Source: a virus
Length of the DNA stretch: 64,000 nucleotides
Virus record (IMG/VR): IMGVR_UViG_3300028392_000053
Span: 1 to 64,000 of that record
Direction: 5' to 3' (one strand)
In this document: one piece after another, positions 5,384 to 5,510 of the stretch
Position numbering within the stretch: the stretch's first letter is position 1
How the letters are laid out: each line of letters starts with the position of its first letter
Notes under the pieces: generated by a model
The model's input: the letters and a program-made list of their open reading frames with translations, nothing else
The model's database searches: none
Told to the model about the DNA's origin: nothing
Translations under genes and position numbers: made by a program

Positions 5384-5510
5384 GGAGATGTGATGTAATG
5401 GTAGCATAGCATAGCAAAAAAATTATCCTGTAAAGGATAAGTTCTGCAACAACTACGCTCTAACTCTGTAAAAGTTCTTGTGTGCGGTTCGAATCCCACC
5501 ATCTCCACCA
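5384..5510 (+). tRNA. tRNA-Tyr-like gene with an insertion (127 nt)
   Basis: Acceptor GGAGATG/CATCTCC, discriminator A, CCA and T-loop TTCGAAT are tRNA-like, but the body is about 40 nt too long. It has two hairpins with UGUAAA loops: TTATCC-TGTAAA-GGATAA (5423-5440) and AACT-CTGTAAA-AGTT (5462-5476), the second a Tyr-type anticodon loop. The T-stem needs a bulged C. The segment 5417-5447 matches the two ends of element A in reversed order. It may be an intron-like insertion, a mimic or a decayed second tRNA-Tyr. Confidence 0.5.

Follow-up and report, generated by a model that had tools for sequence, protein, structure and literature searches.

The window analysed here, the 64,000-nucleotide stretch at positions 1 to 64,000 of IMG/VR virus record IMGVR_UViG_3300028392_000053, carries a short RNA module that occurs in two circular orders, as the paired outer ends of five elements (A to E) and as a closed hairpin within a tRNA-Tyr-like gene at 5384-5510. 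The elements carry parts of tRNAs as cargo, and the module co-occurs with, and lies next to, a gene for a DUF2828 protein with the predicted fold of Ro60. Our favoured explanation, which we hold with moderate confidence, is a phage ribonucleoprotein (RNP) akin to those of Y RNA and Ro60 that would show tRNA parts through a common handle, perhaps as decoys against tRNA-cutting defences. A link between the module RNAs and the DUF2828 protein in one RNP seems likely; the decoy role of the tRNA parts is a tentative suggestion.

The relation between the two orders can be read directly. The string AAAAAATTATCCTG has exactly two copies in the 64 kb, one at the end of element A (1143-1156) and one at 5417-5430. 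The latter is followed at 5434-5449 by AGGATAAGTTCTGCAA, which differs by one base from the 5' end of element A, AGGATAAGTTCAGCAA (1094-1109), so that the strand order at 5417-5449 is reversed with respect to element A. A preliminary description of this stretch had reported this juxtaposition with its single mismatch, and had also seen that the stem strands form a closed hairpin here and outer ends in A-E. Both observations hold, and amount to the same module in two circular orders. The parts of the Tyr-like gene are as follows.

5384..5510, plus strand: tRNA-Tyr-like gene with inserted module; acceptor 5384-5390/5500-5506, ACCA encoded; 22 distinct relatives
5413..5459, plus strand: AGC/GCT helix closing the inserted arm (AGC 5413-5415, GCT 5457-5459)
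5423..5440, plus strand: module hairpin TTATCCT-GTAA-AGGATAA, the outer stem of A-E in closed form (strands TTATCCT 5423-5429 and AGGATAA 5434-5440)
5441..5449, plus strand: module motif GTTCTGCAA, which fits the consensus NTTC(A/C/T)GCAA of 279 outer elements
5462..5476, plus strand: intact anticodon arm AACT-CTGTAAA-AGTT, anticodon GTA at 5468-5470; invariant or nearly so in 22 genes

The module thus forms an extra arm, sited between the D-arm and the anticodon arm. Its loop is a GUAA tetraloop of the GNNA type; the Tyr-like TGTAAA loop previously assigned to it was a misreading, and the true Tyr-type arm lies apart, at 5462-5476. Because the gene's own GUA arm is intact, the stem is an inserted module and not a former anticodon stem. 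ARAGORN made no call for the gene, and Rfam RF00005 gave no match, the sole score being 17.8 bits with the tmRNA model. The long variable arm typical of bacterial tRNA-Tyr is missing, the variable region being short in 22/22 Tyr-like genes. A second tRNA-like gene with a Tyr(GUA) anticodon, also overlooked by ARAGORN, lies at 1598-1683; it has no normal D-arm, and its anticodon arm is apparently enclosed by a stem CCCTTC/GGAGGG.

A search for Tyr-like genes returned 25 stretches with 33-63 nt inserted between the D-arm and the anticodon arm, and none with 2-32 nt there. All 22 distinct genes carry the hairpin, and no uninterrupted gene was found. The hairpin stems (AGGATAA, AGAATAA, AGAATTG, AGGATTG, AGAATAC and AGAATTC with their complements) differ between genes, as do the loops (GTAA, GACA, GATA, GTCTGT, GTCTGA and GTATGT), which are GNNA-type or hexaloops and retain no anticodon. 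We rejected a reading of the hairpin loop as an anticodon loop on the grounds of this variation, and a reading of the insert as an intron on the grounds that uninterrupted genes are absent and the inserted arm is closed by its own helix. In an alignment of 21 distinct Tyr-like genes, with the T-stem drawn with a one-base bulge, 99.4% of cells are paired, and the acceptor, D, anticodon and T arms are conserved. Two-sided changes occur at 11/30 pairs against a mean of 7.2 in shuffles, and the pairing is lost when partners are slid. The covariation falls in the acceptor, the T-stem and the module stem; the last has two-sided changes at 3/7 pairs with 100% of cells paired. The AGC/GCT helix is paired in 95% of cells, with one compensatory change.

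The closed hairpin is not confined to Tyr-like genes. It also lies within other tRNA genes, with anticodons assigned by eye as Glu UUC, Met CAU, Asn GUU and Gly UCC, and in acceptor minihelices with CCA. At locus L308:5546 it replaces the anticodon arm of a tRNA body that has an acceptor, D-arm and T-arm. Among annotated phage genes, it is present in KVP40 tRNA genes tagged pseudo, 'OTHER' or unusually long (L310:8507-8619, 8630-8753 and 10304-10419) and in similarly odd tRNA genes of Cronobacter S13 (L200:11896-12138), Aeromonas Ahp1 (L313:11731-11844) and Aeh1 (L316:36385-36506). Such hairpin-bearing genes are probably not decayed tRNAs.

In the window, the module forms the outer ends of five elements.

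1094..1155, plus strand: element A, module AGGATAA...TTATCCT; cargo a Lys(UUU)-type anticodon arm, TTTGA-CTTTTAA-TCAAA, whose stem covaries
1533..1586, plus strand: element B, module AGAATCC...GGATTCT; cargo a Ser(GGA)-type anticodon arm
5849..6057, plus strand: element C, module AGGATGG...CCATCCT; long cargo, relatives 208-217 nt
6080..6184, plus strand: element D, module AGAGTAG...CTACTCT; permuted tRNA cargo with T-arm, closed acceptor and D-arm
6194..6310, plus strand: element E, module AGGTTAA...TTAACCT; permuted tRNA cargo, in the DUF2828 gene leader, ending 23 nt 5' of the ATG

Each element is built on a 7-bp outer stem that starts with AG and ends with CT, with N-TTC(A/C/T)GCAA inside the 5' strand; the 3' strand is preceded by an A-rich sequence and followed by GTT. 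The stem, AG(G/A)NNNN / NNNN(C/T)CT, adjoins a kept mismatch, with UUCAGCAA on one strand and the A-rich sequence on the other. Over all loci, which comprise viral contigs anchored on DUF2828 and others retrieved with nothing but the element pattern, the motif AG(N5)N-TTC(A/C/T)GCAA has 338 distinct sites. An exact reverse complement of the 7-nt stem plus GTT lies downstream, within 300 nt, of 280 of them, against a mean of 3.15 (maximum 8) with stems shuffled among sites, and 11 sites take the hairpin form (0 in shuffles). A looser motif finds 489 outer-stem elements, as compared with 1 in reversed sequence. The elements use 39 distinct stem sequences, and position 8, next to the stem, retains its mismatch (G.A, G.U, A.C or U.C). 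Folded one at a time, the sequences give weak energies (z -1.9 to +0.2), and the element structure is therefore based on covariation; in one alignment, a one-base misalignment of the ends caused RNAalifold to miss the outer stem. Rfam returned no family for the elements at gathering or relaxed thresholds. Several other inter-tRNA stretches of the window (663-886, 884-1010, 1250-1368, 1974-2036 and 5183-5306) have neither the module nor an Rfam match; several are closed by long terminal stems, such as ATATTGAAACATA...TATGTTTCAATAT, and they are perhaps akin to what the annotation of phage T5 calls 'stable RNAs of unknown function'.

What the module encloses is diverse. Of the 279 distinct outer elements, 187 do not exceed 70 nt, and in 114 of these the best inner hairpin has a 7-nt loop (7.5% in shuffles); a U33/A37/A38 loop is present in 84 short elements (0.3% in shuffles). 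Judged by sequence, the 7-nt-loop cargos are anticodon-arm mimics, and another short class, GCTA...TGTC-TAGC-GACA, reads by eye as an H-type pseudoknot. The 76 elements of 71-140 nt have a T-arm in 64 cases. In element D and nine relatives the outer stem is followed by a T-arm, a closed acceptor and a D-arm, and the acceptor shows compensatory changes; we assign this type as a circularly permuted tRNA minus the anticodon arm, with the arm order of YrlA. In other cargos, such as that of L033:2170, the D-arm, anticodon arm and T-arm follow the usual order. One handle therefore carries anticodon-arm mimics, pseudoknots, tRNA-like bodies, acceptor minihelices and YrlA-like permuted tRNAs. In most elements the outer stem surrounds a mimic of an anticodon arm, a pseudoknot or an entire tRNA-like fold, which indicates that it works as a portable handle. 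The YrlA model RF02553 has a sole match in the window, at 7884-7997 and away from the elements, where the junction of two tandem tRNAs scores 24.8 bits (gathering threshold 69); this suggests that tandem tRNA genes could give rise to the permuted tRNA cargos. At L079:10616 and L106:4694, an anticodon-arm hairpin CAAA-CTTTTAA-TTTG could swap with a pseudoknot TTTGAC/GTCAAA, a possible switch.

The putative partner of these RNAs is encoded directly downstream of element E.

6333..7754, plus strand: gene for DUF2828/DUF7788 protein with a Ro60-like predicted fold (Pfam, AlphaFold, Foldseek and VIA), the proposed binder of the module

A scan with the element pattern only yielded 80 loci, with DUF2828 within the stretch in 30 and elsewhere on the contig in 20 more. 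In 30 loci with the 5' end of the gene, 90 elements lie on the gene strand and 0 on the opposite strand, and in 22/30 the distance from the end of the closest upstream element to the DUF2828 start codon is 15-37 nt (mostly 22-24). Control contigs anchored on gp41 have DUF2828 in 2/27 cases, and paired elements occur in those two only (Fisher p = 0.003, although p-values here are overstated because the sequences are related). The module and DUF2828 are found together in distantly related named phages, namely BUCT-ZZ01, KVP40, nt-1, Cronobacter S13, Aeromonas Ahp1 and Aeh1 and Stenotrophomonas DLP6, and also in felixounaviruses and relatives: JohannRWettstein, HY02 and Citrobacter Michonne, each with several elements including one YrlA-like permuted tRNA. 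Felixounaviruses of E. coli (L314:9323 and L311:7473) have four module elements each, with stem AGACC..., one of them a YrlA-like permuted tRNA, and are suited to work in E. coli K-12. Phage T5, in the stretch with its tRNAs, has neither module nor DUF2828.

The protein is predicted to combine a helical ring with a vWA fold, as in Ro60/TROVE. The top ten fold matches of its AlphaFold model (predicted local distance difference test, pLDDT, 75) are all Ro60 chains, with Z of 11.9-17.0 (Foldseek, VIA), including 1yvp (Z 17.0 over 375 residues), the phage phiLo Ro60 9l5y (Z 14.7) and D. radiodurans Rsr 2nvo (Z 12.6); unrelated vWA-only chains reach Z of up to 10.8. The metal-ion-dependent adhesion site (MIDAS) motif DxSxS of the vWA domain (D277, S279 and S281) is unchanged in 26 sequences. 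A sequence search of the PDB gave no match, so the likeness to Ro60 is visible only by fold comparison. Relatives number 681 phage records in one collection, and depositors have labelled those in other phages 'RNA-binding protein', 'Ro-like' or 'Ro sixty-related'.

We propose that the module RNAs are excised from the tRNA-array transcript, and that a Ro60-like DUF2828 ring would then grip them by the handle and present the tRNA part. In A-E the strands of the handle would be the RNA ends, with the tRNA part within, an arrangement shared with bacterial Y RNAs; in the Tyr-like gene they would be shut by the GUAA tetraloop, which makes the module an additional arm on an RNA that otherwise resembles a tRNA. 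The element in the leader, which lies about 23 nt 5' of the start codon, probably exerts feedback on DUF2828 synthesis. Such an RNP would most likely serve as a decoy for, or inhibit, tRNA-recognising enzymes of the host, chiefly anti-phage anticodon nucleases. It is possible, if doubtful, that a repertoire of tRNA-fragment decoys, comprising anticodon arms, acceptor minihelices, anticodon-less tRNA bodies and pseudoknots attached to the ring by one handle, soaks up immune nucleases such as AriB of PARIS, with the leader handle regulating the set.

The cargo anticodons bear on this last idea. UUU, UGU and GUU account for 61/110 anticodon-arm cargos as compared with 343/3579 tRNA genes in these loci. 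Of the cargos with these anticodons 59/61 retain U39, versus 47/90 of the tRNA genes with them, figures that kinship and AT-richness inflate. AriB targets the UUU, UGU and GUU tRNAs, which have a common UAAU at positions 36-39, the cut site, and the resistant tRNA-Lys of T5 is altered at U39 (PMC12409363). An earlier study raised the possibility that the tRNA-like domain of YrlA competes for an anticodon nuclease (PMC7790460). UCU cargos are also common (15), so that the shared feature of the cargos may simply be U36/A37.

Several observations weigh against our proposal. Binding of the module by the DUF2828 protein is suggested by genomic association, whose p-values kinship overstates, and the association is incomplete: about 30 element contigs have no visible DUF2828 (the contigs are fragmentary, and nearly all of those above 40 kb have the gene), and the module was not found in the fetched stretch of the DUF2828 phages Ochrobactrum OC and Mycobacterium Zaria. 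The confidence of the AlphaFold model is moderate, Pfam TROVE does not match the protein, which matches DUF7788 and DUF2828 instead, and the Rfam model of YrlA has no match at the elements. AriB also touches tRNA beyond the anticodon arm (PMC12409363), so the arm alone may not bind it. U-rich loops and an A31-U39 pair are favoured where stems are rich in AT.

Other explanations must be weighed on the same evidence. Like the Deinococcus Rsr-Y RNA-PNPase machine, a Y-RNA-like RNP could instead serve RNA quality control or turnover: its RNAs would gate the ring and tether tRNA-binding or degradative enzymes, allowing the phage to break down or reuse host RNA. Rsr is tethered to PNPase by YrlA (PMC8394870), and both the Ro60-like predicted fold and the D/E-type cargo, with its D, T and acceptor arms in YrlA order, agree with such a function. 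Yet no described YrlA offers a counterpart to the short cargos made of anticodon arms, pseudoknots or acceptor minihelices, and turnover would not predict the anticodon skew; we regard it as possible, though not what we expect. It is rather improbable that the module is a mere processing or stability signal of the tRNA-array transcript, with the interrupted genes as working tRNAs that tolerate an extra arm and DUF2828 as a chance neighbour. The elements do sit between tRNA genes with U-rich stretches on their flanks, and the Tyr-like gene retains its acceptor, CCA and anticodon; nevertheless, the DUF2828 linkage spans distant phage groups, an element occupies the leader, and neither tRNA-rich T5 (tRNA stretch) nor the gp41-anchored relatives without DUF2828 have paired elements.

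The origin put forward in the preliminary description, in which circular permutation of a tRNA opened its anticodon stem and so gave rise to the outer stem, is unlikely. The comparison of intact and permuted versions proposed there does find both: element D has its permutation at the anticodon position, with L308:5546 as the matching unpermuted form. Against this origin stand the Tyr-like gene, which keeps its own anticodon arm and has the module as an additional arm with the AGC/GCT helix, the cargos that themselves contain an anticodon arm, and the GNNA-type and hexaloop loops. Short inverted ends and many copies per genome might also suggest small mobile elements, with the outer stem as a terminal inverted repeat and the hairpin form as an insertion. 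The 39 self-pairing stems leave no fixed terminal repeat, all 90 of 90 elements lie on the array strand with wholly different cargos, and the hairpin sits at the same place in all 22 Tyr genes, none of which has that site empty; we rejected this scarcely credible reading as already contradicted by stem diversity and the absence of empty sites.

A handle that can be found by pattern yields at once candidates for the partner RNAs of widespread phage Ro60-like proteins, including several 'pseudo' or 'other' tRNA genes of KVP40, Cronobacter S13 and Aeromonas phages. The counter-defence role suggested by the cargo anticodons is testable in E. coli with felixounaviruses.

Several known systems resemble parts of this one. 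Permuted tRNA genes of algae and archaea place the 3' half before the 5' half, as D and E do, but here the tRNA is opened at a stem retained as the ends, with no sign of splicing back to a tRNA. T5 tRNAs that counter PARIS share the anticodons UUU, UGU and GUU; they are whole tRNAs changed at the cut site, whereas the arm mimics here keep UAAU and add a handle. Phage Ro60-like proteins (that of Thermus phage phiLo, 9L5Y, and the mycobacteriophage 'Ro-like RNA binding protein') have the same predicted fold, and the open literature searched described no RNA partners of this architecture for phage Ro60 or DUF2828 proteins. Nor did we find described there the multi-copy, multi-cargo design with a closed form in tRNA genes. 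The closest parallel is YrlA (RF02553) with Rsr/Ro60, which likewise has an end-paired stem and a tRNA-like domain with permuted T, acceptor and D arms (as in D and E) and is encoded beside a Ro60-fold protein (PMC8394870), the fold here being predicted. The basal stem of 5' and 3' ends is present at the 280 of 338 sites, and the tRNA-like domain in element D and nine relatives, not in A and B with their anticodon-arm cargo. In contrast to YrlA, the system has its own module sequence, many copies per genome, a closed hairpin within tRNA genes, no Rfam match, and anticodon-arm, pseudoknot, acceptor-minihelix and whole tRNA-like cargos. By the test made it is not a member of the Rfam YrlA family; it is a system that would work like Y RNA and Ro60.
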